IMG/VR virus record: IMGVR_UViG_3300025364_000003
Coordinates: 124,001-188,000 of that record
DNA: 64,000 bases
Source of the DNA: a virus
Strand: one strand, 5' to 3'
The notes below the pieces were generated by a model, which made no database searches, was not told the origin of the DNA, and was given only the letters and a program-made list of their open reading frames with translations. Shown piece by piece: positions 1,934 to 64,000 of the stretch (the stretch's first letter is position 1; each line of letters opens with the position of its first letter). Position numbers and translations under genes: made by a program.

Positions 1934-3619
1934 TTAACGAATTCCGCTTCCCTCTTCAGCTTCAAGCTCGTTAGGTTTTCTAACGAGCTTTTTCTTTTCT
2001 ATATCATGACCCTTCACTTGTCCGACGTCTCTTAAATCGAACCCTGGCATTAGTGCAATTTTTTGCTTTGGAAAGCTTCCTCTTGCATTTGCATAACATG
2101 CTTGTCCAACAATCTCGGTAAAGGCTGCTGGAATTGCTTTTTTGGGCAAGAGTTTAGCATGTGCATTGAAAGCGGCCACTTCCCCTTTGTCACTAAAATC
2201 CACATTAGCCAAGATGTGAACAATATAATCATGAACAGCTCTAAACTTCAGATTTTGTTCAGGTGTAAACACATCATGTTGATTATAATCAGTTGATATT
2301 TTCAAAACGCCAGTTTTTTTAACTTCTTCGGACATTTCTTTCTGCGAATTATAAGGTTGCCCAGGAACAAACTCAACCTTTACCTTGGAAAGCATTCTCT
2401 GATACATTTTCTCAATATGTGAGATTAGTGCTTTATACGATGCAACAGCCTCAGGATCATAATCTGGGAGTTCATCATATGCATCTGCTACTAACTCACA
2501 ATATTTCTTGTAATTTGATAGAACCATTTTTTCTTGCAGGTGTCGGTCAAATCTTGCCTGGCTTTCATTTAGAGAATTGTGGACAACTTTGCCTGAGCGC
2601 TTATCAACAACCTTGAAATTGGGACTCCAAAATTTGGAGTAATCTGAAATGAATTGCTGCGGAAGGTTCCCATAGACAAGCTCAAGCACTTGTCCACGTC
2701 CTAAAACGATGGCAACAATTTTGTTTCGACCACTGAAACCAACTGGTTCTGTAATTCTTAAGGTTGTTTGCAGGCGCCACTCATCTTCTTTTGGAGGGAG
2801 CGCAAATTTTCTATATCTTTGTGAAAGCTTATCAAGAGCTTGTAAAAACTTCTTTTCTCCTTCTATAACATTAAATGTAGGGATTTCATTTTTCTGGTAC
2901 ATTTCTTGTGCAATTTCTCTAGCCTTTTCCCAATCCATCTTTTGTTCTAGGGCGTATTCATACGATTCAATATAGGCTTGCTTCGCCCTACCTTTCTTCA
3001 TGTCAACGTGACCCAAAACTCTTTCCATGGCTGCATCGAAAGTGTCTTGCATCATCGCCTTGTCCATTGGCATTTTTTCACTTGTCTTGAGTTTGTTATG
3101 CAAATTTGTGGCGAAGTCGGACATAAGTTCTTTATAAAAATTTGGGTCAGCATCAATGGTGCCTTTGGCCATTGGCACCGCTAAATCTAAATCTCTAGCA
3201 CCAAAATGTGAGCGTAACGCTTCTGCGAATGCTCGTTGTACAGGCATACGAACATCGTCTTCATCTGCTTTGGCAGATTGGGGCACGAGCTGAGCTACAA
3301 CAATCATCATTCGGCTTTCGCCACCAGTTGACATGGCATCTCTAGCAGAGCTATAGGCAGTTACAATGTTGTCAGTCCAATAGCTACCTTTCAGGGAATG
3401 CATTGACGGGCTTAGAATGGAACTCGCTTCAAGTTCTTCTTCGCCTTTCCAGCGACCTTCGGTTGGGTCTGGAATCATTCCGAGTTGGTAAATTTTTGGC
3501 AGATGTTTTGAACTTGTCCCGTGATACATTATCACGGGTTTTGCCCTCTTCCGCTCAAGAAGAAAATCAACTTCTTCTTTTACCAGTTTTTTGATGATAT
3601 TTTTGAGGTTATCGTTCAC
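1934..3619 (-). CDS. ADP-ribosyltransferase-like protein with N-terminal packaging-type tag
   Basis: This 561-residue protein begins with the shared amphipathic tag (NLKNIIKKLVKEEVDFLLE, residues 4-22). It continues with an ART-like core: 'VIMYHGTSSKHL' near residue 30, where YHGT matches the NAD-binding His strand of ART/PARP/KptA folds, then 'GSYWTDNIVTAYSSARDAM' near 80-100, the usual Y-x-T-x-x-x-x-A-x-x-(Y/S)-A segment. Candidate catalytic glutamates occur in 'GQVLELVYG'. The long C-terminal part is helical and unidentified. In T4, Alt is an ADP-ribosyltransferase packaged in the head through a similar tag, so an ejected enzyme modifying host proteins is a reasonable inference. The full catalytic triad cannot be confirmed by eye. 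Confidence 0.65.
   Translation of the reverse strand: MNDNLKNIIKKLVKEEVDFLLERKRAKPVIMYHGTSSKHLPKIYQLGMIPDPTEGRWKGEEELEASSILSPSMHSLKGSYWTDNIVTAYSSARDAMSTGGESRMMIVVAQLVPQSAKADEDDVRMPVQRAFAEALRSHFGARDLDLAVPMAKGTIDADPNFYKELMSDFATNLHNKLKTSEKMPMDKAMMQDTFDAAMERVLGHVDMKKGRAKQAYIESYEYALEQKMDWEKAREIAQEMYQKNEIPTFNVIEGEKKFLQALDKLSQRYRKFALPPKEDEWRLQTTLRITEPVGFSGRNKIVAIVLGRGQVLELVYGNLPQQFISDYSKFWSPNFKVVDKRSGKVVHNSLNESQARFDRHLQEKMVLSNYKKYCELVADAYDELPDYDPEAVASYKALISHIEKMYQRMLSKVKVEFVPGQPYNSQKEMSEEVKKTGVLKISTDYNQHDVFTPEQNLKFRAVHDYIVHILANVDFSDKGEVAAFNAHAKLLPKKAIPAAFTEIVGQACYANARGSFPKQKIALMPGFDLRDVGQVKGHDIEKKKLVRKPNELEAEEGSGIR
1964..1998 (+). terminator. Rho-independent terminator embedded in the opposing gene
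   Basis: A perfect 11-bp stem (AAGCTCGTTAG at 1964-1974, CTAACGAGCTT at 1980-1990) with a 5-base loop is followed by TTTTCTTTT on the + strand. It would stop transcripts of the GIY-YIG gene. It lies within the 3' coding end of the minus-strand gene at 1934-3619, so the last codons of that protein are shared with the hairpin. Confidence 0.8.
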
Positions 3620-3634
3620 CCTGATAAATATGAA

Positions 3635-3868
3635 CTATGTTTTAGTTTCGTTATCAACTTCGGACTTCATTTTATTGTCAATTTGATTTATAGAAGCTTG
3701 TGTATGATAAGAAGCAACATCATCAGCTAGCTCTGCTGTCCACTTTACCTTTAGTTTTCTGGCGTTGGGCACAATGGCTGTTGTTTGTACATGAATCCAA
3801 TTTGGCAACTGGCTACGATAAATCTTTTCAGCTCGATAGAATTTGATCAAGTAAACTAAGTTCCTCAT
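3635..3868 (-). CDS. hypothetical protein, 77 aa
   Basis: A small basic protein (MRNLVYLIKFYRAEKIYRSQ...) whose start overlaps the stop of the upstream gene by ATGA (3865-3868). It is the third gene in a minus-strand run starting with peptide deformylase. The N-terminus resembles that of the preceding 72-residue protein in having an aliphatic strand followed by YRAE/YRSE, so the two may be distant paralogues. No domain recognised. Confidence 0.65.
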   Translation of the reverse strand: MRNLVYLIKFYRAEKIYRSQLPNWIHVQTTAIVPNARKLKVKWTAELADDVASYHTQASINQIDNKMKSEVDNETKT

Positions 3869-4083
3869 TTTTCAATTAACTTTTGTAAAATTTGAAACAC
3901 TTCAAGGTCTTCAATAGTCTTATCAATGTCACATGAGAATCCATCAAATGGAATATTGGGTCCACCAAATGCTTTTAGCAATGTCAGGGTCTTTTTGGCA
4001 GCTTCTTTTCTTCTTATGGCTTCATGGTATTGTCTTTCGGACCGGTAGATGCAAACAAGAGCAGTAAATTGAAGTTCCTTCAT
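3865..4083 (-). CDS. hypothetical protein, 72 aa
   Basis: Begins MKELQFTALVCIYRSERQYHEA and is predominantly helical, with a Lys/Glu-rich middle and an amphipathic C-terminus (IEDLEVFQILQKLIEK). It overlaps the deformylase gene upstream and the 77-residue gene downstream by ATGA at each end, so the three are translationally coupled. The opening pattern (hydrophobic strand, then I-Y-R-S-E) recurs in the next protein. Function unknown. Confidence 0.7.
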   Translation of the reverse strand: MKELQFTALVCIYRSERQYHEAIRRKEAAKKTLTLLKAFGGPNIPFDGFSCDIDKTIEDLEVFQILQKLIEK

Positions 4084-4646: not shown

Positions 4647-4674
4647 GCTAACTCCTTGGTTTAATATAGCATGC
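4643..4674 (-). promoter_or_regulatory. hairpin sequestering the start codon of def
   Basis: On the minus strand, GCATGCTA (4674-4667) and TAGCATGC (4650-4643) form a perfect 8-bp stem around a 16-base loop. The second arm contains the ATG of the deformylase gene, and the loop holds its AAGGAG ribosome binding site. Folding would hide the AUG while displaying the Shine-Dalgarno, a plausible translational switch. This is visible base pairing; the regulatory role is inference. Confidence 0.45.
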
Positions 4675-4711
4675 CTTGTTTAAAAACAAATCGATAAACT
4701 ATAGAGTAATT

Positions 4712-5011
4712 CTACTTAGGTTTTGGTCCTTTGAAAGCTTGGAAAGGTACTTGATAGAGTGCTCTTCCGATCATCGATAAAGTAAGATCAAAGTCTTCTC
4801 TTAGTTTTTGAATTTCTTGATCGACGATTCCTTCATATTGGTCTTGACTTTCTATTTGATCGGCATAAGCACGTATGCCATTCTGAACGACTTGCATAAG
4901 TTGCTCTTTGAACCTATAGGCTTTGCCCATATGAACTTTACCATCGCTTTCAACAATCAATGATTCACGTACCGTTTCACGGATTAGTTTTTTGAGTTCT
5001 TCAAGTTTCAT
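4712..5011 (-). CDS. small tagged protein, unknown function
   Basis: A 99-residue protein when started at the ATG at 5011 (a TTG at 5029 would add six residues). It opens with the shared tag (MKLEELKKLIRETVRESLIVE), ending in I-V-E followed by S, a match to the [LI]-x-E cleavage pattern of T4-type prohead protease. The remainder is helical (FKEQLMQVVQNGIRAYADQI) without a recognised domain. The ATG is preferred because other tagged proteins also begin MK. It is divergent from the SLOG gene, only 11 bases away. Confidence 0.75.
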   Translation of the reverse strand: MKLEELKKLIRETVRESLIVESDGKVHMGKAYRFKEQLMQVVQNGIRAYADQIESQDQYEGIVDQEIQKLREDFDLTLSMIGRALYQVPFQAFKGPKPK

Positions 5012-5022
5012 CAGAGGTAAAT

Positions 5023-5493
5023 ATGACAAAGCAGGTGATTATTATAGGAGTTACGGGCCATCGAAAGCTTGATCACGATAAAGATGTTGTTAAAGAAGTG
5101 ATACGTGAAAAGTTACATCAATATGAGGCTGATGCAGTTGTCACTGGAATGGCACTTGGGTTTGATATGTTAGTAGCTGAAGTGTGCCTAGAAGAAACTA
5201 TTCCATTTGTTGCGGCTATACCATGCAAAGACCAAACAAAATTATGGCCGCCACATGAGAAAATACGTTGGACCGAGTTGATGAAAAAAGCTTGGAAATA
5301 TAAAATTGTTTCACCTGGGCCTTTTGAGACTTGGAAACTTTTTGAAAGAAATCGTTGGATTGTTGATCGTTCAAATATTATGTTGAGCTATTGGAATGGG
5401 GTACCCAAAGGAGGAACAGCGGCAACAGTTAAAGAAACCAAGAAATCTAAACGCCCTCACGAGAACCTGTATCCTCTTTGTGAATCCAGGTAA
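5023..5493 (+). CDS. SLOG-fold nucleotide-binding protein (YpsA/DUF1273-like)
   Basis: This 156-residue protein has the SLOG/LOG Rossmann-type pattern: 'VIIIGVTGHRKLD' at the N-terminus, 'VVTGMALGFDMLVAEVC' near residue 40, and 'RNRWIVDRSNIMLSYWNG' with 'PKGGTAATVK' near 110-130. Members bind nucleotides or nucleotide-derived ligands; some act in cytokinin activation, DNA processing or nucleotide sensing in phage defence. The length fits YpsA-like proteins. The start has GAGG upstream. The 3' end overlaps a convergent gene by 47 bases. Confidence 0.8.
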   Translation: MTKQVIIIGVTGHRKLDHDKDVVKEVIREKLHQYEADAVVTGMALGFDMLVAEVCLEETIPFVAAIPCKDQTKLWPPHEKIRWTELMKKAWKYKIVSPGPFETWKLFERNRWIVDRSNIMLSYWNGVPKGGTAATVKETKKSKRPHENLYPLCESR

Positions 5494-5863: not shown

Positions 5864-5932
5864 TTATTCTTATAATAAATAGTCGTTTGTTTTAGAGTCC
5901 CACCTCTAATTAAAAGAGGAGCGGTGGCACAC

Positions 5933-6610: not shown

Positions 6611-6619
6611 AGCCTTCAG

Positions 6620-6897: not shown

Positions 6898-7560
6898 ATG
6901 TCCATCTACGAAAAATATATCAAACAACTTATCGAAGAAGAGATCAATCGAAGTCTTCTTGAACAGGATTTGCCAGTTGAAGAACCGGCAGACACGCCTG
7001 CTGATGTTCCGGCACCCGATGCTGGTGCAGCGGGCGAAGCCGGGGCTCCAGAGGCCGGTGGAGAGGAAATTGATTTAGACATTGGTGCTGAAGGCGGCGA
7101 TATAGATTTGGACGTTGGAGGCGCTGCTGGGGGGCTCGAAGGAGGAGAACTGGGTGGCGATCTTGAGGACACTGAAGGCGTCGAGGGAGAAGAAGGGCTT
7201 GATGTAGCAGGTGGTGGTTTTGGAGGAGGCTTTGGCGGTGGTGGATTCTCTTTTGGAAGCGATGGCGAACCAGGACTGACTCCCGATGATGAAGAGGAGG
7301 CAGACACCGTTACAACTGTTGGTCCAGAAGATGTTGAAATCCCAGATGACCCATATATGGCCATTACTGACGAGGCAATCAATTTACTAAAAACAACTCG
7401 TCAGCCTGAGGTTATTCTAAAATCAGTTAAATCATCAATTCAGAGATATTTTGATGAATTTGATGATGCAACACCAGTAATTAAAACATTGTGGGATACT
7501 GAAGACATTACTCTTCGAGACGTTGCGAGAAGATTGCTTCTATTTATCAAAGGAAAATAG
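6898..7560 (+). CDS. tagged acidic Gly-rich protein
   Basis: This 220-residue protein begins with the shared tag (YIKQLIEEEINRSLLE then Q), followed by a highly acidic low-complexity region of Pro, Ala, Gly, Asp and Glu (residues 25-145) that includes a Gly/Phe patch (GGGFGGGFGGGGFSFG). A folded C-terminal domain of about 75 residues follows (AITDEAINLLKTTRQPEVIL... RDVARRLLLFIKGK). The highly acidic linker suggests a capsid-interior or scaffold-type protein, but this is inference. It is the first of three consecutive tagged genes. Confidence 0.8.
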   Translation: MSIYEKYIKQLIEEEINRSLLEQDLPVEEPADTPADVPAPDAGAAGEAGAPEAGGEEIDLDIGAEGGDIDLDVGGAAGGLEGGELGGDLEDTEGVEGEEGLDVAGGGFGGGFGGGGFSFGSDGEPGLTPDDEEEADTVTTVGPEDVEIPDDPYMAITDEAINLLKTTRQPEVILKSVKSSIQRYFDEFDDATPVIKTLWDTEDITLRDVARRLLLFIKGK

Positions 7561-7574: not shown

Positions 7575-7895
7575 ATGAAAATTACTGATGACGAACTTAG
7601 ATTGATGGTCCGTGAAGCTGTGCAAAAGAAAGTTGCGAAGCTTAAAGAGGCTAGTGATTTTACAGCACGAAGACAAATCGTTCACTCGGCTGAGAAGGCT
7701 TCAATGGATTTCGAAAAGGAAATTGTTGGACTTCTCAATCTTGTAAAACCAGATGAGATGCCACCTGCGCTTCAAAAACAATATTTCTACATTGTGGAGC
7801 AAATGAAGGACGAAATTAAATCTGCGGTTATGAAAGCAACACGTGATCTTGCCAAACTCCCGAAGACAGAAATGGGAACGCAGAAGAAACGCTAA
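7575..7895 (+). CDS. small tagged protein, 106 aa
   Basis: Begins MKITDDELRLMVREAV and the tag runs to 'AKLKE|AS', an excellent match to the L-x-E|A/G cleavage pattern of the T4 prohead protease. The remaining 80 residues are helical and end in basic residues (TEMGTQKKR). Strong ribosome binding site (AAAGAGGATAAG). It is the second of three tandem tagged genes and presumably goes into the capsid. Function unknown. Confidence 0.8.
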   Translation: MKITDDELRLMVREAVQKKVAKLKEASDFTARRQIVHSAEKASMDFEKEIVGLLNLVKPDEMPPALQKQYFYIVEQMKDEIKSAVMKATRDLAKLPKTEMGTQKKR

Positions 7896-7928: not shown

Positions 7929-8252
7929 ATGAAAAAGATTAGAAAAAGCGAATTAAAGGGCATGGTCAAAGAGGCCGTCAGAAAAGGTCTGCAAGAGAAA
8001 TTTGATTTTACAAACGACCTTGTTCCTGATGATGTTGCAGGATATTCACGAAAAGTTGATGAGTTCCTTAAAGACACTATCAAAAAGGCAAGAGAATTGC
8101 ATGACGAAGGCGAAGAAATGATGCGGGCCAATATTCTTTCGTCGTACGGGGTTCAGGAAAGAAATCGTTTTCTTCTTTACAACGTAGGTTTTTTAAATAA
8201 CCTTGTTGCAAGTTTGATTGCAAGACTTGAACACAAGTATCGTCAAGGGTAA
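7929..8252 (+). CDS. small tagged protein, 107 aa
   Basis: Begins with the shared tag (SELKGMVKEAVRKGLQE then K). The mature part is helical with a short conserved-looking middle (NDLVPDDVAGYSRKVDEFLK) and a C-terminal helix (NNLVASLIARLEHKYRQ). AAAGGA precedes the ATG. A terminator follows at 8274, so this is the last gene of the three-gene tagged group at 6898-8252. Confidence 0.8.
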   Translation: MKKIRKSELKGMVKEAVRKGLQEKFDFTNDLVPDDVAGYSRKVDEFLKDTIKKARELHDEGEEMMRANILSSYGVQERNRFLLYNVGFLNNLVASLIARLEHKYRQG

Positions 8253-16205: not shown

Positions 16206-17276
16206 ATGCCAGCAAAATCACAAGATCAGCAGCAGGCCGCCGGAATTGCATTGCAGGCCAAAAGAGAAGGCACTGTGGACGAGCTACCCAGCGGTTCAGC
16301 TTCCAAAGAAATGGCCAAATCGATGACTAAAAAGGAATTGGAAAAACTGGCTGGAACAAAACATAAAGGGTTGCCAAAAGACATAGACGAGTCCAAAACA
16401 TGGGCCGGCTCGTCGTTAGTAGCTGTTTTCAAGGAGGAAATGCAAGGCGTTTCTGACCAAGACGATGAAGAAGAACAAATCACAACACAAAAATCCAAGG
16501 TAGAACGTTTGAATGATCGAGAAATTGGCACCGGCAAAGGCACAGAAGATACTTGGACTTCTACTGCTGGAGGAACTGCACCAGCCATTGCCAATAACGC
16601 TCGTAGTCCGATGACTTCAAATACTGCCGGTGCACGTGTTGCCGAGCAAGTAAAACTTTCAACCGGCAAGGAAACATGTCCAGCATGTGACGGCACTGGC
16701 CTGAAGGATGGCAGAGATAACAGACCAGCTCCTATGTGGCAACCGGATCTCTGTCCTGTTTGCCTTGGAAAAGGCGAGGTAGAAACAGGAAAAGAACTTG
16801 AAGAAATTCATGCTTCAAACAAAATAAATGAAACAATTAATCTCAGCAGGTGGCAACAGCTTGCAGGACTTAAAGTTGTTTCTGAACTTTTAACAGAAAA
16901 AAAAGAAAAGCGGGTGCAAAAAGCCGTGGACTCAAAAGCAGGTCAGGCAAAGCCTAATAAAGCTGCTAAATCCGTAGCAAAAGAAAGCACTTCATTTGAA
17001 GAAGTGTTAAAATCTCTTTTTAAAGAAGGAACGACTACAGAACAGAGATATTTTGATACCAATCAGGACGAAATTGGTGAAGGCAGAAACCCAAATAGCC
17101 TTGACATCGTTTTTGAAATGGACACAGCTCAGGCAAAAAATTATGTTAGTCGATTAGCAAAACATGGCTGGTCCTGGGACAAGGTTGCAGAACAACTAAA
17201 AAACCAATATGGAGTCAGGCCATATGAGATCGACAAAGTGTTGTTTCCTCATTGGAAAGAAGTAACTGGTCAATGA
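16206..17276 (+). CDS. DUF3008-like protein with DnaJ-type zinc finger
   Basis: This 356-residue protein starts MPAKSQDQQQAAGIALQAKR and continues with 'MTKKELEKLAGTKHKGLP' near residue 37. This matches the small DUF3008 family found in phages. Near residues 157-190 there are two C-x-x-C-x-G-x-G elements (CPACDGTG and CPVCLGKG), as in the DnaJ zinc-binding domain. The rest is charged linker plus a C-terminal domain (AQAKNYVSRLAKHGWSWDKV). Two segments resemble the shared tag ends (VVSELLTE and SLFKE|GT). A virion-associated role is possible. Confidence 0.75.
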   Translation: MPAKSQDQQQAAGIALQAKREGTVDELPSGSASKEMAKSMTKKELEKLAGTKHKGLPKDIDESKTWAGSSLVAVFKEEMQGVSDQDDEEEQITTQKSKVERLNDREIGTGKGTEDTWTSTAGGTAPAIANNARSPMTSNTAGARVAEQVKLSTGKETCPACDGTGLKDGRDNRPAPMWQPDLCPVCLGKGEVETGKELEEIHASNKINETINLSRWQQLAGLKVVSELLTEKKEKRVQKAVDSKAGQAKPNKAAKSVAKESTSFEEVLKSLFKEGTTTEQRYFDTNQDEIGEGRNPNSLDIVFEMDTAQAKNYVSRLAKHGWSWDKVAEQLKNQYGVRPYEIDKVLFPHWKEVTGQ

Positions 17277-17491
17277 CAAAAATTAGCAAACGTCGTTTGA
17301 TGGAATTAGCGGGGTTGGACATTGCCCCTTCGCCAACGAGTGTCAATGCATTTCATGCTCCGGGTCACATGGCAAAAGTAAACCAAGCACAAGAAATAAG
17401 AGATGTGCTTGGCCAAGATGAAGAAGATACTGTGCCCTCTGATGATATTGAAGAAGTAGAAAGTGAACTACTTGCTGTCGATTTTGACTAA
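17273..17491 (+). CDS. hypothetical protein, 72 aa
   Basis: Started at the ATG at 17273, which overlaps the upstream TGA (ATGA). Its opening 'ISKRRLMELAGLDIA' resembles 'LSRWQQLAGLKV' inside the preceding protein, suggesting a shared targeting or interaction segment. The C-terminus is strongly acidic (DEEDTVPSDDIEEVESE). No domain known. Confidence 0.65.
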   Translation: MTKISKRRLMELAGLDIAPSPTSVNAFHAPGHMAKVNQAQEIRDVLGQDEEDTVPSDDIEEVESELLAVDFD

Positions 17492-36047: not shown

Positions 36048-36066
36048 GTTCTTAAATATATAAAAC

Positions 36067-36074
36067 CTACTTAA
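36067..36074 (+). promoter_or_regulatory. CTACTTAA junction motif
   Basis: Its last base is the A of the ATG at 36074. Found in the 26-base divergent gap between the matrixin and the multidomain ART-like gene. If the motif were a -10-type element the first start codon would be too close, so either the start is further in or the motif has another role. Confidence 0.25.
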
Positions 36075-44891: not shown

Positions 44892-44919
44892 AAAAAGCCA
44901 CGTCTAACGTGGCTTTTTT
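44892..44919. terminator. bidirectional Rho-independent terminator
   Basis: A perfect 12-bp stem (AAAAAGCCACGT / ACGTGGCTTTTT) with a CTA loop lies between the fibre gene (+) and the convergent HAD-like gene (-), whose stop codon touches its end. Confidence 0.92.
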
Positions 44920-45517
44920 ATTTAACTAATTCAATTTCTATTTGAACCTCTGGAAATTCTTCCACAAGTTTTTCCGCAGCTTGTACATTAAACAGATTGT
45001 CATCGAAGAATCGTAGAATTTTTATATTTCCTTGTTGAAGCTTACCCCTCAGATATGCTTGTTTTCTTGCAGCGTTTAGCTCACCAACATCACCCGTAGG
45101 CGTGAAATCTCCAACTGCTACAACTTCAACGTCCGGCATTCCTTGTTGGGATATGAATTCAATAATTTCATTGGCCGCTGGTCGTGCAGTACAAATAGAA
45201 ACCCCGTAAGGTCCTAGACGCTTGTAGTCGGCTTTCATTCGATCAAAATGAGGTAAAGTAACAGGATTTAAAATAACTCCAAAGTCTGATAAATCAAATT
45301 CTTCATCATCCTTAAGATGATATTCATGAAATTCGTGCGGCGATAGTTCTCTTGTTTTACCAGTTGTCTTATTTATTAAGTGAACAGTGCCTTCTGTACT
45401 GCAAAGTGTATCGTCAAAATCATAAACATTTAGCTCATTTGGTGCGTTATCAAATATTTCTCTCAATATTTTACTTGCATATTCTTTGATCAATATTTCT
45501 AATCTGGGCTTTGACAT
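44918..45517 (-). CDS. tagged HAD-fold hydrolase-like protein
   Basis: A 199-residue protein. Residues 4-24 are a variant of the shared tag (LEILIKEYASKILREIFD, with L-R-E). The HAD core follows: 'LNVYDFDDTLCST' (motif I, D-x-D-x-T), 'GVSICTARP' (motif II, Thr), and 'ILRFFDDNLFNV' (motif IV, two Asp). A conserved Lys is less clear ('ARKQAYLRGK'). The pattern resembles phage HADs similar to polynucleotide phosphatase/RNA repair proteins. Substrate unknown. If the tag means packaging, it is an ejected phosphatase. Confidence 0.75.
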   Translation of the reverse strand: MSKPRLEILIKEYASKILREIFDNAPNELNVYDFDDTLCSTEGTVHLINKTTGKTRELSPHEFHEYHLKDDEEFDLSDFGVILNPVTLPHFDRMKADYKRLGPYGVSICTARPAANEIIEFISQQGMPDVEVVAVGDFTPTGDVGELNAARKQAYLRGKLQQGNIKILRFFDDNLFNVQAAEKLVEEFPEVQIEIELVK

Positions 45518-46982: not shown

Positions 46983-47444
46983 ATGAAAATTTCCAAGAAA
47001 CAAATAAGAACCTTGGTTCGTGAAGCAGTACGAGTGCAGCTTGATGAAATTTATGGCATTTCACAGTATGAACGTATGCTTGAGCTAAAACATCAATATG
47101 AAGACGACATTAAAGTTCTTGATAAGATTGGTCCCGAATTATATCAAAAGATCATTGATTTTAGAGAACAGGCAAGTGATTTCAATGAATTCAAAAGGCT
47201 TGTGAGGGGCATGCCCGTTCACATGGCAAAGAAGTTTTGGGATCGCCAAATGGGCAAAGTTTCAACAGAGCGACTTGTGGAACTGCGTGATGAATGGGAA
47301 GAACTTAAAGATCGTTTCAAAGAGATAGATGCAACAACAGAAGCTGACCGAGCTTATGGACGCAAGCGAACAAAAATTATTGATACAGAAACTGGTGAGG
47401 TCATTGGGACCGAAACGGACAAACGAGGCAGTCTGGGTTCCTGA
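46983..47444 (+). CDS. tagged helical protein, 153 aa
   Basis: Begins MKISKKQIRTLVREAVRVQL with D-E following (L-D-E), one of the best copies of the shared tag. The remainder is a long helical protein (ERMLELKHQYEDDIKVLDKI, TERLVELRDEWEELKDRFKE) ending in a basic, Gly-containing tail. It is placed inside the neck gene block, so it is presumably made late and packaged. Function unknown. Confidence 0.8.
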   Translation: MKISKKQIRTLVREAVRVQLDEIYGISQYERMLELKHQYEDDIKVLDKIGPELYQKIIDFREQASDFNEFKRLVRGMPVHMAKKFWDRQMGKVSTERLVELRDEWEELKDRFKEIDATTEADRAYGRKRTKIIDTETGEVIGTETDKRGSLGS

Positions 47445-51742: not shown

Positions 51743-52489
51743 GTGTTACTCAAAGAATATATAAACTATCAAGTTGCTAGTGTCTTGCTCGAAATCAGAG
51801 GCACGTTCAAGTGGAATGAATTTAAGGCACTTAGTACCCTAGACCAAAAACTTCAATACGCTCAACAACATCTCAAGGAGCTTGGAAGAGGTAGCAGCAG
51901 GGCTGCCTTCCTACTAAGCAATCGATATGTTTTAAAGATTGCCCTTCCTCAAGCGGCAGAAAAGGGAATGGGGCAGAACAAAGGCGAGCTTCAGGTCTTT
52001 GCTAATACGGCAAGCAAGAATTATGTAACCGCTATTCATGACGCTGGCGAAGATGGCCATTGGCTCGTTTCAGAAATTGCACGACCACTTGCAAGCACAG
52101 AAGAATTTCAGAAGCTCACAGGGGTTCCCTGGGAACAGTTTGTTTCTATACTGAAAAATCATGAAGATATCAAGAGTGAATTTAGCGAGATCGAACAGGG
52201 CATTCAAATGTGGTCTCGTCGTCTCAAAAATGCTCAATCGCAGGGTAATGAAGCGGGTATTGACAAGTTTACAAAGAACGTTCAAAACCTTCAGCAAAGA
52301 AAAACAAACCTTCAAAAAATGTTAAATTCACCAGTGGTACAAGGTGCTCTTGCTTTGATGAATCAAGCTGGTGTTATGCGTGGTGATATTCTTGAAGTGG
52401 ATCATTGGGGCAAAACCGCTGATGGTCGTGTAGTTCTATTAGACTACGGCTTTACAGAGGACTTGGTTGACCTTTACCGAGCTGCATGA
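51743..52489 (+). CDS. tagged protein-kinase-like protein 1
   Basis: A 248-residue protein, GTG start. Residues 1-20 are a variant of the shared tag (YINYQVASVLLE|IR). The kinase-like pattern follows: Gly-rich loop 'LGRGSSRAAFLL' at 47-58, 'YVLKIAL' with the probable ATP-binding Lys at 65, a Glu helix (GELQVF), hinge 'GHWLVSEIARPL', catalytic loop 'RGDILEVDHWGK' in the place of HRD-xxxx-N with Asp for Asn, and 'VVLLDYG' for DFG near 230. It is the first of three tandem paralogues. Substrate unknown; packaging with the DNA is inferred from the tag. Confidence 0.75.
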   Translation: MLLKEYINYQVASVLLEIRGTFKWNEFKALSTLDQKLQYAQQHLKELGRGSSRAAFLLSNRYVLKIALPQAAEKGMGQNKGELQVFANTASKNYVTAIHDAGEDGHWLVSEIARPLASTEEFQKLTGVPWEQFVSILKNHEDIKSEFSEIEQGIQMWSRRLKNAQSQGNEAGIDKFTKNVQNLQQRKTNLQKMLNSPVVQGALALMNQAGVMRGDILEVDHWGKTADGRVVLLDYGFTEDLVDLYRAA

Positions 52490-53283
52490 TGAGACTGAAA
52501 GAACAAATACGCTTCATGGTTTTTCAAACACTTCATGAAATTAGGAGTAATTTCAAGTGGTCTGAATTTAAAAAGATAGATGATCACTTTGACAGGGCCT
52601 TGTACCTTATAAACACTGGTACTCAAGTATTAGGGGAGGGAACTTCACGTCTTGTATTTTTGTTAAGCAATAGGTTTGTGCTCAAACTAGCCCAACTAGC
52701 CCAACCTCTTCCACGTTCTCCTCGTAGTTTTGAGAGAGGGAAGGCGCAAAACAAATATGAAGTAGATTTGTCTACCGATCCAGATGTAAAACCAATTGTG
52801 GCCGAAGTCTATGATGCGGCCGATGATTACTCGTGGATTGTTTCGGAGTTGGTTCGACCAATAAAAAATATAAATGAATTTAAAGATTTAACTGGGTTTT
52901 CGTTCACTGATTTTCGCCAGGTTCTTAAACTTGTTTTTGAGGGCGAACTTGAAAATACCATTGAGAAACATCGCAAATTGCGACAGAGGTATATCGAAGA
53001 GATCAATCGACTTGACTCTGAAGATACGGCCGATAAAACAAATATTGAATACTACAAAAGCCAACTTGAGGCTATTGAAAAAGTTATTGAATATCAAACT
53101 GAATTACCCGAACACCCAATGGTACAAGCTGCTATTGAATTAATTTCTGATAAGGGTGCAATGGCTGCCGATATGATCGTGTTAGACCACTGGGGCAAAA
53201 CTGCCGATGGCCGTGTAGTTTTGTTGGATTATGGTTATTCGAGAGATGTAGCTAGAAAACATTATGATGTTACGTGGATCTGA
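52486..53283 (+). CDS. tagged protein-kinase-like protein 2
   Basis: A 265-residue paralogue coupled to gene 1 by ATGA. Tag 'QIRFMVFQTLHE|IR' at the N-terminus, then 'FKWSEFKKIDDH', 'LGEGTSRLVFLLSNRFVLKL', 'YSWIVSELVRPIKNINEFKD', a longer insert helix, 'AADMIVLDHWGKTADGRVVL' and 'LDYG'. The HRD-type Asp and DYG are retained. The region from DHWGK to DYG is almost identical in all three copies, which suggests strong constraint on the active site. Confidence 0.75.
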   Translation: MMRLKEQIRFMVFQTLHEIRSNFKWSEFKKIDDHFDRALYLINTGTQVLGEGTSRLVFLLSNRFVLKLAQLAQPLPRSPRSFERGKAQNKYEVDLSTDPDVKPIVAEVYDAADDYSWIVSELVRPIKNINEFKDLTGFSFTDFRQVLKLVFEGELENTIEKHRKLRQRYIEEINRLDSEDTADKTNIEYYKSQLEAIEKVIEYQTELPEHPMVQAAIELISDKGAMAADMIVLDHWGKTADGRVVLLDYGYSRDVARKHYDVTWI

Positions 53284-53307: not shown

Positions 53308-54017
53308 ATGTTAGTTGCAAATCTTAAAGAACAAATACATTTCATGGTGTCGCAAACTCTTTTAGAAATTAGGAGTAATTTCAAGTGGTCGGAGTTTAAA
53401 GAACTTGAAACTCCTAAGGGAATGGCATATTACCTAGAAAAAACAGGCACCGAAAAACTAGGCAGCGGGTCTTCTAGATGGGTTTACTTATTGAGCAACC
53501 GCTATGTCTTAAAATTAGCTGATCCTTTAAATCCTCGTAGGGGACTGGCCCAAAATCATGCAGAACTTGAAGTTGCAACCGACTCAGTGTAGCTCCATTC
53601 GTGTCGCAAATTTTTGATTATGATCCTGATGGTTTCTGGTTGGTATCTCAACTTGTTAGACCATTGAATAGCGATGAAGATTTTGAAAAACTAACTGGTG
53701 GAATCGACTGGGAAGCATTTCAGTATGCCGTACAAACTTTTTTGTATGAAGCTAGGGGGGATTTTAAAAAAGCTGCTGATGAACTTGAGTTTAGGGCATC
53801 AAGGAGAAATTCTGATCATTATGCAGAAGTATTACTCAAGGCTCTTTCATATCTTAAGACAAACAAGTGGGTGAGAAATTTTCTAAAAATGGCAAAAAAA
53901 TACGATTTGCTTCCAGAAGATTTAACATTTTTAGATCATTGGGGCAAAACCGCTGATGGACGTGTAGTGCTTCTTGACTATGGTTATACGGCATTAGTTC
54001 ATGATCTACACTACTGA
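53308..54017 (+). pseudogene. tagged kinase-like protein 3, frameshifted
   Basis: The third paralogue reads from ATG at 53308 through 'QIHFMVSQTLLE|IR', 'LGSGSSRWVYLLSNRYVLKL' and 'AQNHAELEVATD', then hits TAG at 53590. In the neighbouring frame the homology continues without a gap ('VAPFVSQIFDYDPDGFWLVS', 'LPEDLTFLDHWGK', 'VVLLDYG') to TGA at 54015. One missing base near 53588 explains it. The C-terminal part alone is open from 53601. I see no heptameric slippery site. The result is a recent inactivation or a sequence error; the rest is intact. Confidence 0.7.
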
Positions 54018-58501: not shown

Positions 58502-61500
58502 ATGACTCAAATTAATTTCAAAAGTGCAGGAGTTTCAGCCAGGGTTATCAACCTTACTGGCCCAACAGCAATTCAACCTGTTGGAATCCCAGCTGGTGTG
58601 ATCGGAACTGCTGTAAAGGGACCTGCATTTGTTCCTGTAACTTTTGCAACAACGCAGGACTTTACGGTTGTATTCGGACTTCCAGAAGACAACAAGGCAA
58701 ATGGACCACTTGCTGTGGGCGAGTGGCTTCGTAATAGACAAGCAGCAACTTACCTTAGGGTTCTTGGTGCTGGTCAAGCCAAGAGAAGAGAACAATCTGG
58801 AGAGAATCAGGGTAAAGTTCAGGGTGCAGGTTTTGTTGTTGGTGACGAACAGCCACAAGCTGGTGGAGCATTGGATAACAACATGTACGCCAATGAAGGG
58901 GGACCTCTAGGGCGTTTGTATTTCCTAAACACCTTTATGTCAGAAGCAAACGGTTCGGGTTTTCTTACTGACGCTGGTCTCCCTGGTGAGGGAACGCCAA
59001 TCGTTAGGGCAGTTCTTTTAGCTGCTTCCGGTGTTATCATCACCCTTTCTTCGTCACTTTCTGCATCGACAATGGTTCCAGGAGCAGCTCCAGCGTCAAA
59101 CCTTGTTGCCACAGAAGAAAATAAGAGCGGTTCATTCCTAGGCTCCGTCAACCTCTCCGGCGGCAGACAGGAATTTGTGATGTTCTTGAATGGTCACAAG
59201 GGAACTGATCCTCTATTTCCCAATGTCATTACTGCATCTTTTGATGTTGACGCACCAAATTACCTTGGCAGTGCCCTTAACACCGATCCTTTCAACCTTG
59301 AAAAGGCAGGTTACTTGCTTTATGCCGATTACTCGGTTCATCCAAACCTTGCAACCGTTACTGGTTCTTCTGTGGTCGATACCACTACTGATGAAGTTGT
59401 AGGTGGAGGTTTGGCAGCTGGATTTGAACCAATCGCATTCTTGGCAACTGGTTCATTGTCTCGAAACTCCGGCTCAACCGTAGTACCAAGTTATGAAAAC
59501 TGGGAAGATAGATACACTACGCCAAAATCACCTTGGATTGTTTCACAGAGGCTTGGCGGCAAGCCAAGAAATCTCTTCAGAATTCATCTTTTGGATGACG
59601 GTGCTTGGGGCAACGATCAGGTCAAATGGTCTGTTGAAAACATTGTTCCGGCAATCAATGATGTAAACCCTTATGGAACTTTCGACCTTCTCATCCGTCG
59701 TTTCAACGACATCGATAAGAAACGTGAGGCAACTGAGGCTTGGAGAGGGCTTTCACTCAATCCAAGCTCCGACAATTACATTGCTAGAGTGATTGGTGAC
59801 CTCAACACCTTCTACAACTTTGATGCTGCCGAAGGTAACCAGAAGATTCAAACTACTGGCGAGTATCCAAACCAGTCCAAGGTTATCAGAGTAGAAGTCT
59901 CGCCAGACGTTGAAAACGTTGAGTTGGATGCTTCGGCTCTTCCGCTTGGTTTCAGAGGAATTCCACACTTGGTAACCTCGGGAACTGCACCATTGGCTCC
60001 ATTAGGCGAAGCACTTGCAGACAGCGTTCTTATTACTGGCTCTTCTGATCCAGCTCACAATGTCGTACAGATGCCAGTTCAGTTCCGCAGAAGCCTTAAC
60101 CTTGGTTCGGTTACCAGCCGTCGTGTAGACAAGGGCCTCTATTGGGGTATTCAGTTTACTCGTCAGCTTTCAGTTGAAGAGCCAAACTCAACAACCGAGC
60201 CAGAAAGAACTATTGCCAACTTCACCAAGTTCTTCCCTAAGCATCAGACTGATTGGTTGAATGTTGTCGTCAGCGACAATGAAGGAGTGGCAGATGCGGC
60301 AGAAACCGGTATTCTTGATGCGGATAGGTTCAATAACAACCTATTCTCTCTTGAGAACATCAGGATCGTAAGAGATCCGATCACGAATCTTGCTGACACT
60401 ACCCAGCTTGTAAGTTGGAGTTATGTAAGAGCCGGAAACGTAGCTACCTCTGGTTCGGTTAGAGCATTGACAGCTGACGATTTGTCGGATTCATCTGTAA
60501 GGCAGGTTGCTAAGTTCAGCGGAATTATCCAGGGCGGATTTGATGGTGTTAGAATCTTTGATGAAGACACTGCCAATCTTACCAACCTCGCAATTATCGA
60601 AGAAATGGACAACACAAACAGGGGAGTGTCGAATGGTCCTACCGTAAAGGCTTATGATACCGCTTTGGATATCATTGCCGACGACACCGAAACTGATATC
60701 CAACTTCTTACCATCCCAGGAATTAGACATCCACAGATCACCGATGACGCTCTACAGCTTATCGAGGAAAGATTTGATGCAATGTACATCATGGATCTTC
60801 CAGAGTATGACACCACAAATCAACTCGTTACTGCTTCCTCACAGGATTTGAGCGTTAGATTTACCGCAAATCAGCACCGTGATCGAGGTTTGAACACTTC
60901 CTTCGGAGCAGCTTACTTCCCAGACGTAATCTTGAGGGATACACTCAACAACACTATTCGACAGGTTCCGCCTTCGGTTGCTGTTCTTGGTGCATTCGGT
61001 CTCAATGATGCAGTCGGATTCCCATGGTTTGCCCCAGCAGGTTTTGCACGTGGCGCCCTACAGACAACTGAAGAATCTACGCTTCCATTGTCCCGTGACA
61101 ACATGGATGCGCTTCAAGATGTCAAGATTAACCCACTTGTATCCTTTGCAGGATCGGATGGTGTTGTAGTCTGGGGTCAGCGTACTCTACTTGCTCGTGA
61201 TTCTGCACTTGAGAGAGTCAATGTACGTAGACTTCTCATTCAACTTAGAAGAGATGTTCGCCGTGTTGCTCGACGCTTCGTATTCGAACCTGGTCGTGCC
61301 GAAACGCTTGCAAGATTTTCTCAGTTGGTAAACCCAATCTTGAAGAGGGTGCAGGACCAGAGAGGCGTGGAGAGATTCCTTGTAAGAATTGACACCACAA
61401 CTACTACACAAGCCGACATTGAAAACAGAACGGTTCGTGGAAAGATTTTCCTTGTTCCAACCAGAACTTTGGAATTCTTGTCCATCGACTTCGTCGTTAC

Positions 61501-61531
61501 CAATCAAGGCAATTTCGTTTCATCGCAATAA
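58502..61531 (+). CDS. tail sheath protein 2 (paralogue)
   Basis: A 1,009-residue sheath protein with the same architecture: 'GIPAGVIGTAVKGPAFVPVT', 'WLRNRQAATYLRVLGAGQA', 'YFPDVILRDTLNN', 'DVKINPLVSFAGSDGVVVWG' and 'VRGKIFLVPTRTLEFLSIDF'. It diverges from paralogue 1 mainly in the middle. Two complete, intact sheath genes suggest a mixed sheath or alternative segments rather than a failed duplication. GGAGAG precedes the ATG. Confidence 0.95.
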   Translation: MTQINFKSAGVSARVINLTGPTAIQPVGIPAGVIGTAVKGPAFVPVTFATTQDFTVVFGLPEDNKANGPLAVGEWLRNRQAATYLRVLGAGQAKRREQSGENQGKVQGAGFVVGDEQPQAGGALDNNMYANEGGPLGRLYFLNTFMSEANGSGFLTDAGLPGEGTPIVRAVLLAASGVIITLSSSLSASTMVPGAAPASNLVATEENKSGSFLGSVNLSGGRQEFVMFLNGHKGTDPLFPNVITASFDVDAPNYLGSALNTDPFNLEKAGYLLYADYSVHPNLATVTGSSVVDTTTDEVVGGGLAAGFEPIAFLATGSLSRNSGSTVVPSYENWEDRYTTPKSPWIVSQRLGGKPRNLFRIHLLDDGAWGNDQVKWSVENIVPAINDVNPYGTFDLLIRRFNDIDKKREATEAWRGLSLNPSSDNYIARVIGDLNTFYNFDAAEGNQKIQTTGEYPNQSKVIRVEVSPDVENVELDASALPLGFRGIPHLVTSGTAPLAPLGEALADSVLITGSSDPAHNVVQMPVQFRRSLNLGSVTSRRVDKGLYWGIQFTRQLSVEEPNSTTEPERTIANFTKFFPKHQTDWLNVVVSDNEGVADAAETGILDADRFNNNLFSLENIRIVRDPITNLADTTQLVSWSYVRAGNVATSGSVRALTADDLSDSSVRQVAKFSGIIQGGFDGVRIFDEDTANLTNLAIIEEMDNTNRGVSNGPTVKAYDTALDIIADDTETDIQLLTIPGIRHPQITDDALQLIEERFDAMYIMDLPEYDTTNQLVTASSQDLSVRFTANQHRDRGLNTSFGAAYFPDVILRDTLNNTIRQVPPSVAVLGAFGLNDAVGFPWFAPAGFARGALQTTEESTLPLSRDNMDALQDVKINPLVSFAGSDGVVVWGQRTLLARDSALERVNVRRLLIQLRRDVRRVARRFVFEPGRAETLARFSQLVNPILKRVQDQRGVERFLVRIDTTTTTQADIENRTVRGKIFLVPTRTLEFLSIDFVVTNQGNFVSSQ

Positions 61532-61563
61532 TTGAATAAATTTCCCCATAAGAGAGGTAAATA

Positions 61564-61668
61564 ATGAAGGGTCTACTCCACCGTTTAATAAATCTTTTCA
61601 ACTCTGAGCACTGTTGCTGCTGTTGTGGCTGCTGTCAGTGCCGGAACTGCAAGGGCAGCTGTAAGTGA
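61564..61668 (+). CDS. cysteine-rich mini-protein, 34 aa
   Basis: ATG at 61564, preceded by AGAGAGG, to TGA at 61666-61668. The product is MKGLLHRLINLFNSEH followed by 18 residues with ten cysteines, including five consecutive Cys and the pattern C-x-C-x-x-C-x-x-x-C. The stop overlaps the GTG of the next gene (GTGA). An amphipathic N-terminal helix plus a metal-binding or disulphide-rich tail is a plausible form. Its place straight after the sheath genes suggests a virion or assembly role. No family known to me. Confidence 0.7.
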   Translation: MKGLLHRLINLFNSEHCCCCCGCCQCRNCKGSCK

Positions 61669-62519
61669 ATGATAGGGATAGAATACAAGGATTCATTTCT
61701 GACTTAGTCAAAGAAGAATTGACTGAGGTATCTCCTGTATTTTATCCCACAATCAAAAAGGGAATAGAAGCTGGCCGTGAGGCTTCTCGTAGACAGGCTT
61801 CGGCCTACAGGGGAAGGCACGGCCAAACCTTTTCTGATGAACTTGCTCAAATACGTCGAGATTCCAAGCGTAAAAGGGATAGGCATCATAAGATGCTGTC
61901 GCTTTCCAAGCATCTGAAAAAAGTTTTCGGAAATAATGCATATGGTGGCTCTGCACTTGCCACTGTAGAAATTTCTAACGATTTTAAAGCTGATGTTAAA
62001 GCTGAATTTGTGAGCGTTATGGGAATTGATAATGTCAAGTTTGTAGTTTCAATAAAGAAAAACGGCAAAGAAATTCTTACCAAAGAATTTGTTGCTGGAT
62101 TAGGGGCAAAACAAAGTGTAGCAAGGTTCATTAAGAAATTTCAGGAAAAATTGCAAGAGGATGCAGCAATGAAGGTTACGAAAGCGCAACTAAAAGAAAT
62201 GGTCCGCAAGATCATTAGAAAAAAATTAACAGAAATGGATCTTGGTGAAAAAAGTCGATCTACTACAGGGGCTGACAGGAGGATGAGTCCATCTCAACTT
62301 GAAAAGCATCTTGAAAAGGAAAGAGAAAGATCAAAACAAGCCAAGGTTGTTAAAAAACGACAAGCAATGAAGCAATCGGCTCGTGGTATGGAATTAGAGA
62401 GTCGCATAGATATTGATCGAGATGTTGACAACGAAGAAATGGTTGATGCTAAAGAAGAAGAATATCTTACCAAGCTCGAAAAGTTAATTCTTCAAAGTGA
62501 AAAGGAAGGGCTTTGCTAA
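61665..62519 (+). CDS. doubly tagged protein, 284 aa
   Basis: GTG start overlapping the mini-protein's stop. The first tag is N-terminal (IQGFISDLVKEELTE|VS). A second complete tag, with its own Met, sits at about residues 169-189 (QLKEMVRKIIRKKLTE|MD). Between them lie a basic stretch and a small beta domain (FKADVKAEFVSVMGIDNVKF). After the second tag comes a charged helical tail. Either an internal start at the second Met yields a short form, or the protein is cut in two during head maturation. Confidence 0.75.
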   Translation: MNDRDRIQGFISDLVKEELTEVSPVFYPTIKKGIEAGREASRRQASAYRGRHGQTFSDELAQIRRDSKRKRDRHHKMLSLSKHLKKVFGNNAYGGSALATVEISNDFKADVKAEFVSVMGIDNVKFVVSIKKNGKEILTKEFVAGLGAKQSVARFIKKFQEKLQEDAAMKVTKAQLKEMVRKIIRKKLTEMDLGEKSRSTTGADRRMSPSQLEKHLEKERERSKQAKVVKKRQAMKQSARGMELESRIDIDRDVDNEEMVDAKEEEYLTKLEKLILQSEKEGLC

Positions 62520-62520
62520 A

Positions 62521-63078
62521 ATGACTACTATAAAACAAATAATTGAAGAAGCTGTCAAGGAAGCACTTGACCCAGTTGGGAAAACTGAAACGGGGAAAAA
62601 GGTAGGGGTCGGTCAAATTCGTGACATCGACAACGATGGTGATATTGATAGTTCTGATGCGTATCTTGCATATCGTCGAAAAAAAATTACACAGGCAATG
62701 AAAAAAGAAGATCGTGAACTCAATGAAAAAACAATGACTTGGGGTGATCTTCCATCGGAAGATGTTTTTGAAGATTTAATGGATGGCAAAGCTTTCAACA
62801 TGAAACTTCAGGGTGCCGACTCTCTTGCGTTTGAATATGCCATGACTCTATCTGATAATCCAGGAGCGGGAAGTACAGCATCTGCGGGCAGTCTTAGAGC
62901 TACCATAGAAGCCCTTATCAACGCTCCAGAGCCAGACGAACTTTCTGATGACCAATACGAAGAGGTTGAAAATGTTCTTGACGAATGGAACGACAGATAC
63001 GGGGATGTGAGCATTGAAGAAACTGCGTGGTCTTTGGCTTCTGGTATTATGGAAGTCCTTGGAATTGAATGGATTTGA
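62521..63078 (+). CDS. tagged protein with dockerin-like calcium motif
   Basis: A 185-residue protein from MTTIKQIIEEAVKEALDP (a degenerate tag lacking the final L-x-E). Residues 33-50 are 'IRDIDNDGDIDSSDAYLAY', a dockerin/EF-hand-type calcium loop (D-x-D-x-D-G-x-(I/V)-x-x-x-D). The C-terminal 110 residues are acidic and helical (LSDDQYEEVENVLDEWNDRY). Similar dockerin-tag combinations occur in marine phage proteins. Function unknown. Confidence 0.75.
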   Translation: MTTIKQIIEEAVKEALDPVGKTETGKKVGVGQIRDIDNDGDIDSSDAYLAYRRKKITQAMKKEDRELNEKTMTWGDLPSEDVFEDLMDGKAFNMKLQGADSLAFEYAMTLSDNPGAGSTASAGSLRATIEALINAPEPDELSDDQYEEVENVLDEWNDRYGDVSIEETAWSLASGIMEVLGIEWI

Positions 63079-63087
63079 TAGAGTAAA

Positions 63088-63582
63088 ATGCCAAAGAGTA
63101 AATATCCAAAAAGCGTACAAGATCTACCAGAAGACGACTACAGTCAGTGGACGGCAGTTTATCACAGTGCACGTGACGGGGGCGACAGCAAAGAAACCGC
63201 AGCAAAAAAAGCTTGGGGTGCTGTTAAGGAATCCGGCTTGCAAGAAAGTGGTGAAGATAATCCATGCTGGGATGGTTACGAAATGGTCGGTATGAAAACC
63301 CAAAACGGGAAAGAAGTACCTAACTGCGTTCCGAAAAATGAATCAAAAAAACCTGTACGTATTTCAAAAACGCAGCTTAAAGAAATGGTAAAGCGGGCCG
63401 TTAGAAATCAATTACAAGAGGCTTCCACTGTTCGAAAGCGTCAAATGATACTTGATCGGTTTAGAACCGAAGCAAACCTTTCAACTTATGAATTGCTAGA
63501 AGACGTCCTTGAATTCATTGATGAAAAGACTTGGCAGAAAGTATTGCAGGGCATTGGTAACAAATATGGTTATCGACTTTAA
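63088..63582 (+). CDS. ChaB-like protein with internal tag
   Basis: A 164-residue protein. Residues 7-50 follow the ChaB pattern ('SVQDLPEDDYSQWTAVYHSA', then 'ETAAKKAWGAVKE'). A small motif 'DNPCWDGYEMVGMKTQNG' and 'VPNCVP' follows, often seen in phage virion proteins. Then comes an excellent tag copy (TQLKEMVKRAVRNQLQE|AS) at about 92-108 and a helical C-terminal domain. If the prohead protease cuts after the tag, the protein becomes two pieces. Confidence 0.75.
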   Translation: MPKSKYPKSVQDLPEDDYSQWTAVYHSARDGGDSKETAAKKAWGAVKESGLQESGEDNPCWDGYEMVGMKTQNGKEVPNCVPKNESKKPVRISKTQLKEMVKRAVRNQLQEASTVRKRQMILDRFRTEANLSTYELLEDVLEFIDEKTWQKVLQGIGNKYGYRL

Positions 63583-63654
63583 CAGAATAAAACAAAGACA
63601 TAATAAATGAGCAGAATAATTTACCTATAGAGCCTTTATACGGGAACAGGTAAA

Positions 63655-64000
63655 ATGAAGCTTAATAGAACACAATTCAAGAAAATTTTAAAAGAGTGCA
63701 TCAGAGAATTAATAACAGAAGGTGCATTTGACAATGTAATCAAAGAAAATGTTCAACCAGTTGCTGCAACAGCTAGGGTTGCTCCAAATGATTTTGTAGG
63801 ACAGGTTACTAAAAATTCTACCACGGCGCAACCACCATTCTCTTCTGTTGGTCATATGACACCAAATGAAAGACTTAGGGAACTTTCTCGTATTGCAGCT
63901 ATGCAGACCGCTCAAGGTGACCCAAAACAAGCTGCAATGATGGAAAGTATTTTTGCAGACACGGCAATGACGACCCTACAATCGCAACTTGGAACAGAAA
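63655..64000 (+). CDS. tagged protein, partial (runs off the window)
   Basis: ATG at 63655 opens a frame that stays open to the window edge (115 codons). It begins MKLNRTQFKKILKECIREL then ITE|GA, a textbook [LI]-x-E|G cleavage site. The visible remainder is helical and Thr/Gln-rich (RELSRIAAMQTAQGDPKQAA). AACAGG upstream is a weak ribosome binding site. The C-terminus is not visible, so its function is not assignable. Confidence 0.8.
   Translation, partial: MKLNRTQFKKILKECIRELITEGAFDNVIKENVQPVAATARVAPNDFVGQVTKNSTTAQPPFSSVGHMTPNERLRELSRIAAMQTAQGDPKQAAMMESIFADTAMTTLQSQLGTE

Follow-up and report, generated by a model that had tools for sequence, protein, structure and literature searches.

Candidate capsid-targeting labels, one of them matching the scaffold tail, on otherwise unrelated proteins of a marine T4-like phage

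Two labels shared by unrelated proteins

We analysed a 64,000-nucleotide window (genome positions 124,001 to 188,000) of virus record IMGVR_UViG_3300025364_000003 (G000; 206,528 bases), which derives from a marine T4-like phage; genome coordinates equal window coordinates plus 124,000. Proteins encoded in and beside this window carry two short sequence labels. Label A, an 18-residue helix of the form K-x-x-L-K-x-I-I-R-E-E-V-x-x-x-L-x-E, is real as a profile, and label B, R-W-x-x-L-A-G-L-L-x-E, is a second and distinct label in the same genome; together they have about 15 well-supported carriers that are otherwise unrelated. The labels, an S77 prohead protease, a match between label B and the scaffold protein, a fixed position of L-x-E and cargo modules homologous to proteins of virions were all computed here. 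We put the probability at roughly 0.8 that labels A and B are capsid-targeting labels, by which cargo would be loaded into the head, trimmed by the S77 protease after L-x-E and carried to the next host. Judged from sequence, packaging of the cargo in the head appears well supported and S77 cleavage after L-x-E is likely, while ejection into the host and an effector function of the cargo are unproven. The best reading is that labelling works like the capsid-targeting sequence (CTS) of T4, with two lineage-specific labels. With less confidence, we favour the view that pieces of the head-assembly machinery became labels (B from the scaffold tail, A from the leader of a head gene) that can be exchanged on the same cargo.

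Label A and the leader of a conserved head gene

A first-pass annotation of the window had proposed one cleavable tag shared by about 16 proteins. Open reading frames (ORFs) were called across the full 206.5 kb record and profile-searched as one proteome. A label A profile was built with 73 copies found in relatives and none of those in G000 (the G000-free profile). Run over the whole genome, it recovered seven N-terminal copies with E per genome <0.005, at window 4712, 6898, 7575, 7929, 46983, 62497 and 63655, the likely true start of the gene annotated from 62497 being 62521. Internal copies in genes 61665 (amino acid 173) and 63088 (amino acid 94) scored 42 and 47 bits with a profile that had included both. 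These nine copies of the proposed tag are strong, but about half of those originally listed fail individually: with the G000-free profile 1934 (E 0.09), 53308 (0.125), 52486 (0.14), 44918 (0.37) and the N-terminal copy of 36074 (1.2) were marginal, and 48041, 51743 and the first copy in 61665 were not recovered. The internal copy in 36074 (29 bits) was seen only in an iterated low-threshold scan, which was dropped because coiled-coil matches had contaminated it and was replaced by the G000-free profile. The consensus given in the first-pass annotation holds as a profile but not literally; its literal regular expression, dropped as too strict, matched the window once (7944), and a loosened form twice. 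Across 82 related viral loci an 11-seed profile gave 54 hits, against 2 in shuffled and 0 in reversed proteins; 51 of the 54 were within 30 amino acids of an N-terminus. A short-peptide tblastn search with label A against isolates gave no hit. The copies supported in the window were as follows.

4952..5005, minus strand: gene 4712-5029, N-terminal label A (LEELKKLIRETVRESLIV then E-S); G000-free profile, E per genome <0.005
6910..6963, plus strand: gene 6898-7560, N-terminal label A (EKYIKQLIEEEINRSLLE then Q), with acidic Gly-rich cargo; profile
7575..7649, plus strand: gene 7575-7895, N-terminal label A (...VREAVQKKVAKLKE then A); profile
7944..7997, plus strand: gene 7929-8252, N-terminal label A (KSELKGMVKEAVRKGLQE then K); regular expression, profile and core-gene-leader profile
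46995..47048, plus strand: gene 46983-47444, N-terminal label A (KKQIRTLVREAVRVQLDE then I); regular expression and profile
62181..62234, plus strand: internal label A in gene 61665-62519 (KAQLKEMVRKIIRKKLTE then M); profile
62521..62574, plus strand: gene 62521-63078, N-terminal label A (MTTIKQIIEEAVKEALDP, without L-x-E), then an EF-hand-like module; profile
63367..63420, plus strand: internal label A in gene 63088-63582 (KTQLKEMVKRAVRNQLQE then A); profile
63655..64000, plus strand: conserved head gene with label A (RTQFKKILKECIRELITE then G), continuing to 64146; profile, kept across relatives

The cargo of gene 6898-7560 is comparable to a likewise tagged acidic protein of a relative (G001_31024). 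In gene 61665-62519, a Met at 62169 with AGAGG upstream permits a separate start for the label A region, and in relative G002 the gene aligning with this region stands alone; in gene 63088-63582 the label separates a ChaB-like/CWxGY part from a short C-terminal cargo. We also observed a C-terminal label-A-like helix (RRSLAAIIQETIRAILQEV) in G002_25092, the orthologue of the DUF7178 protein at genome 195224-196048, so labels may occur at C-termini too.

Gene 63655 and its orthologues lie shortly upstream of the scaffold and major capsid genes, and in relatives their leader is MKLTRxELKxIVKECLVEILAE, then G, or near variants. A profile built from 63655-type leaders alone, with close relatives left out, matched 63655 itself, 7929 and the internal 63088 copy in G000, with 0.04 matches expected by chance. 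Label A is therefore the leader type of this conserved head gene, from which most other copies have drifted.

Label B matches the scaffold tail

The single tag of the first-pass annotation was only part of the picture: label A is real, but a second label, copying the scaffold tail, had been missed. Label B takes the form R-[WL]-x-x-L-A-G-[LIV], behind which comes a site containing E, and has six strong N-terminal copies to the right of the window (genome 194848, 198231, 201889, 202103, 202506 and 204230). Some matches of its DNA pattern were discarded as chance matches in unrelated frames. Two copies lie within the window.

16845..16871, plus strand: internal label B (SRWQQLAGL) in gene 16206-17276; 27.2 bits
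17291..17317, plus strand: gene 17252-17491, weak N-terminal label B (RRLMELAGL); 12.7 bits, E 0.2

The scaffold-like ORF (genome 188750-191011) is situated directly upstream of the gp23-type major capsid gene (191067-192989; phrog_138 major head protein, E 2.8e-72) and ends at its C-terminus in NRWQVLAGIKKVD. Among 65 relatives from which the ORF upstream of the capsid gene was taken, the label B motif fell inside the last 30 amino acids of all 65 scaffolds, ending 2-7 residues from the C-terminus, and 59 had an [LIV]xE then [GSATN] site upstream of it (spacing 5 in 45). The typical tail thus reads TLNE, a cut-type position, then GFEAERWAKLAGIK. When the whole G000 proteome was searched with a profile of scaffold tails only, it returned the scaffold itself and a strong internal copy; at N-termini it matched seven times, once weakly, where 0.09 matches were expected by chance. 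The same profile gave N-terminal matches in the close relatives G001 (3), G002 (5) and G006 (5), strong matches to scaffolds only in more distant relatives, and none in T4. We read label B, on this sequence match, as a C-terminal scaffold peptide that was probably relocated to the front of cargo. Beside the label B genes, genome 196971-198224 encodes a 417-amino-acid protein with two YHGT-type segments that look like ADP-ribosyltransferase (ART) segments; it had no family hit.

Labels are exchanged on related cargo

For most of the cargo that follows the labels, no mutual sequence similarity could be detected, and in many records the same label stands in front of unrelated ORFs. Related cargo can bear different labels. 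The cargo of the label B gene at genome 202103 aligns with G013_166058, a label A carrier (MKLTATKLKQIIAEEIKAA), at a modest BLAST E of 4e-5 over 64 residues. This similarity gains support because the gene adjoining G013_166058, with the leader MKKKKLSE then S, is a homologue of the label B gene at 198231, which belongs to the same cluster as 202103. In a kinase-like family, leaders are A-like in some relatives and short in others (MKLFEILFAE then S, MKLFNFLFE then S).

A fixed L-x-E site and an S77 protease

To locate the predicted cleavage site independently, we searched with a 13-column label A profile from which the L-x-E region was omitted. L-x-E then fell at offset 15 in 27 of 28 core-gene-type leaders (the gene 63655 type) and in 29 of 75 other label A copies, every other offset counting 8 or fewer. 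The next residue was G in 26 of the core-gene-type leaders and most commonly S or A in the other copies. The annotated endings in [LI]-x-E followed by A, S or G are thus borne out by the fixed offset and the residue that follows, but not in every copy.

A gp21-type protease, expected elsewhere in the genome by the first-pass annotation, was found at genome 117183-117803 (PF03420 Peptidase_S77, 78 bits, E 5.8e-23), and no S78 protease was found in the G000 record. Together with the tag kept on the head gene and cargo homologous to virion proteins (PMC9602691, PMC10665884), this upholds the idea of a cleavable tag resembling the T4 CTS. An S77 protease was present in 22 of 26 relative records, the four without it being records of 33-67 kb. 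It co-occurred with label A or B in 8 of 22 pattern-selected records versus 3 of 26 random ones, a weak association in mostly fragmentary records; S78 proteases occurred in none of the 22.

Cargo proteins

Cargo and listed proteins with weak or marginal labels included the following.

51743..52489, plus strand: kinase-fold cargo whose N-terminal helix (MLLKEYINYQVASVLLE then I) looks detachable, its label weak by sequence; AlphaFold2 (AF2) and Foldseek
52486..53283, plus strand: second kinase-like paralogue with a marginal leader (MMRLKEQIRFMVFQTLHE then I); profile
53308..54017, plus strand: third kinase-like paralogue with a marginal leader, in two ORFs (53308-53592 and 53601-54017); profile
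1934..3619, minus strand: listed tagged protein (MNDNLKNIIKKLVKEEVDFLLE then R) with a marginal label; E 0.09, no ART family hit
44918..45517, minus strand: HAD/PNK-phosphatase-like cargo with a marginal label; E 0.37, phrog_415 (2.7e-6)

The kinase-like family was modelled by AF2 with a predicted local distance difference test (pLDDT) score of 90.6, and Foldseek matched it to aminoglycoside phosphotransferases (APH), PRPK and protein kinases (E about 2e-4). A leader helix (residues 3-18) precedes the domain in the model, and confidence drops to 57 at residues 11-20, which fits a detachable arm. The kinase fold suggested by the first-pass annotation is therefore confirmed, on proteins whose label is marginal in this genome. 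The split third paralogue is possibly a decaying copy. A HAD-like reading of 44918 holds moderately, again behind a marginal label, while the ART-like assignment of 1934 found no hit in any library searched and the ChaB-like match fell below the cut-off. Searches of solved-structure sequences with 1934 and 44918 gave nothing useful, and Pfam assigned no confident cargo function, with the exception of DUF7178 in the gene outside the window (genome 195224-196048). To call the set an effector cocktail, as had been done, exceeds the evidence, since most cargo is without known function, although the kinase fold stands.

Virion proteins of cyanophages and phage immuto

Mass spectrometry (MS) of the cyanophage S-CREM2 virion identified 52 proteins (PMC10665884). 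Leaders of the T4 type are found there on the MS-detected kinase (MKRFDAFLTE), S-adenosylmethionine (SAM) hydrolase (MKDFDSFLEE) and cytidylyltransferase (MKNFSSFLTE), and also on ORF136 (MQTFSMFFSE); the Cas9-like protein has the same leader core slightly inside (FASFMAE). Behind the predicted cut follow ADEKQQQAPK (ORF154), EETEAHK (ORF14) and FDRDQESLEESSLSR (ORF6). Genetics of the T4 internal protein IPIII assigned CTS positions 4 and 7 to targeting and 8 and 10 to processing (PMC9026906), and the S-CREM2 virion enzyme leaders agree with T4 at all four. MS detected six of seven carriers of T4-type leaders versus 46 of 212 other coding sequences (p 8e-4), or versus 22 of 188 once named structural proteins were removed (p 3e-5), p-values that are optimistic because the leader regular expression was picked after viewing these proteins, its register being that of T4. 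The two MS-detected endolysins were not picked by this pattern scan, the only search for leaders made on them. Orthologues in S-CRM01, S-B68 and, in part, S-N03 have leaders of the T4 type as well, and in S-SCSM1 the NMNAT detected by MS begins MKSFLQFLKE, then A.

Three proteins of the window match MS-detected cyanophage virion proteins, in searches of a small database: the module of gene 62521 matches S-SCSM1_92 (E 7e-6), the CWxGY module of gene 63088 matches S-CREM2 ORF160 (E 1.7e-4) and the N-terminal module of gene 16206 matches S-SCSM1_93 (E 4e-5). All three are homologies of cargo modules, not of labels. Homology of the window kinase to the S-CREM2 ORF14 kinase was also considered and rejected, as a window kinase profile detected none. 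Hypothetical proteins of cyanophages and of immuto (e.g., immuto gp079) are mosaics of small modules (an EGSMA..WVQ helix, CWxGY, EF-hand-like and DACYHKV..YASGAL), some of which lie in MS-detected virion proteins and none of which has a known function.

The named isolates nearest to G000 by capsid protein are Flavobacterium phage immuto (vB_FspM_immuto_2-6A, cultured on Flavobacterium sp. LMO8) and Microcystis phage Mel-JY01. The immuto scaffold ends in SRWQKLAGIIK, and label B is found on gp083. Label A gave 12 hits in immuto, some overlapping, against 0.46 expected; it is N-terminal in gp114, gp080, gp094, gp095 and, more weakly, gp084, and internal in gp071 and gp079.

Proposed mechanism and alternative explanations

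During prohead assembly, cargo bearing label A or B would join the scaffold core within the shell. The S77 protease would then cut after L-x-E, removing the label, and mature cargo would stay beside the DNA inside the head, presumably to enter the next host. Scaffold C-termini of other tailed phages and of herpesviruses have a general role in binding capsid protein, so the scaffold tail here may do the same. As label B is the scaffold's own C-terminal peptide, it probably binds the same partner, taking the site of the scaffold tail, most simply on the side of the major capsid protein that faces inwards. Binding partner, cleavage, ejection and host function are thus what we infer in explaining the labels.

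Several observations weigh against capsid targeting. Outside the core-gene type, L-x-E stands at exactly that offset in only 29 of 75 label A copies, and the label of gene 62521 has none. Near N-termini, bare [LI]xE[ASGT] is unenriched across G000 (22 observed, 21.8 expected) compared with T4 (22 observed versus 13.5 expected), so the site is meaningful only when joined to the label. Distant relatives bear few labels, so the wider family does not depend on the labelling system, and many cargo proteins have no assigned function. Virion support comes from homologous cyanophage modules, and the authors of the S-CREM2 study were unable to exclude that the virion enzymes are contaminants (PMC10665884).

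The labels might instead be assembly signals of head-core proteins that are consumed in the prohead, being degraded or leaving at maturation, and never delivered. Four labelled genes do lie directly upstream of the scaffold and capsid genes, gene 63655 resembles a core-protein gene in its behaviour, and the T4 core proteins gp67 and gp68 are cut to pieces by gp21 (PMC9026906). We nonetheless consider this unlikely, as the cargo includes a folded kinase-type enzyme family (with a marginal label here), homologues of cargo modules persist in mature cyanophage virions by MS, and orthologous cargo swaps labels. That swapping, with different labels on orthologous cargo, also speaks against descent from a few duplicated genes in place of a transplanted label, which we regard as very improbable: the kinase trio and some label B genes are paralogous, but most labelled cargo is mutually dissimilar and labels precede unrelated ORFs in many records. 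Lying between these two in our estimate, and improbable, is the explanation that the labels are amphipathic helices of a generic kind, placed at N-termini for protein-protein contact or for membrane or portal docking and unrelated to protease cutting, with L-x-E incidental. L-x-E is indeed frequent by chance, and some copies lack the site or have it shifted; the concentration at a single offset, with G or S/A next, and the identity of label B with the scaffold tail are not what such helices would give. Capsid targeting by labels A and B therefore remains our preferred explanation.

Comparison with known systems

The closest parallel is the CTS of T4, carried by IPI, IPII, IPIII and Alt and cut by gp21 (PMC9026906, PMC3012670). 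In both systems a short N-terminal leader stands on unrelated internal proteins, with an L/I-x-E site, an S77 protease, a gp23-type capsid and a scaffold core. Whereas the T4 leader is MKTYQEFIAE then A, G000 uses an 18-residue helix or RWxxLAGLLxE, with two labels per genome, about 15 well-supported carriers and a label B that copies the scaffold tail. Neither label was found when T4 was searched, and no convincing carrier of a T4 CTS-type leader (aromatic at 4, F7, I/L8, E10) was found in G000, making this a functional parallel to the T4 CTS and not a sequence homologue. In phage P1, an N-terminal stretch of DarB directs both this large protein and a reporter to the capsid interior (PMC9024508); that study found no consensus common to the Dar proteins, whereas here the label is shared, ends in a protease-type site and in one form matches the scaffold. 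A gp21-like protease removes N-terminal propeptides from head proteins, including ejection proteins, of SPN3US (PMC7411985), but those propeptides exceed 100 residues and are cut at A-x-E-type sites, unlike the short shared helix here. Cyanophage virion enzymes (kinase, cytidylyltransferase/NMNAT, SAM hydrolase and Cas9-like; PMC10665884, PMC9602691) are found in T4-like virions and have cargo modules in common with G000, though their leader is T4-type (MKxFxxFLxE) and neither label A nor B.

Other features of the genome

A portal-like ORF (genome 112972-116199) contains an intein-like insert that seemingly holds an endonuclease-like part of its own, and GIY-YIG-type homing endonuclease-like genes were present at window 1086-1931 and genome 112164-112985 and 193174-194067. 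Two adjacent large tail-sheath-like proteins (window 55386-58445 and 58502-61531) both match the S-CREM2 sheath. Window 35388-36083 (minus strand) combines a signal sequence of the lipoprotein type with a matrixin-like motif of zinc metalloproteases (HEFGHALGLHHD), which is unusual for a phage late region, and window 13272-14138 (plus strand), flanked by tail-region genes, encodes the patatin-like phospholipase motifs GGGSKGAYQVG and GVSVGAL. The T4 late-promoter box TATAAAT was not found upstream of the labelled genes or of the head genes, and is thus uninformative on expression class.

Implications for T4-like phages

Recognition of the T4 CTS in the prohead is only partly understood; gp22 is known to co-purify with the internal proteins (PMC9026906). 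Labels of the scaffold-tail type offer a concrete, testable partner and mechanism for capsid targeting, and immuto, a cultured isolate with both labels, is a natural test system. The labels allow phage proteins that travel in the virion to be predicted from sequence, and the finding that carriers of T4-type leaders in S-CREM2 (kinase, Cas9-like nuclease, SAM hydrolase and cytidylyltransferase) were mostly MS-detected bears on the contaminant question. An inventory of predicted injected proteins is a route to functions in early host take-over and counter-defence. If the proposal is true, natural scaffold mimicry would be a general means by which T4-like phages load host-acting proteins.

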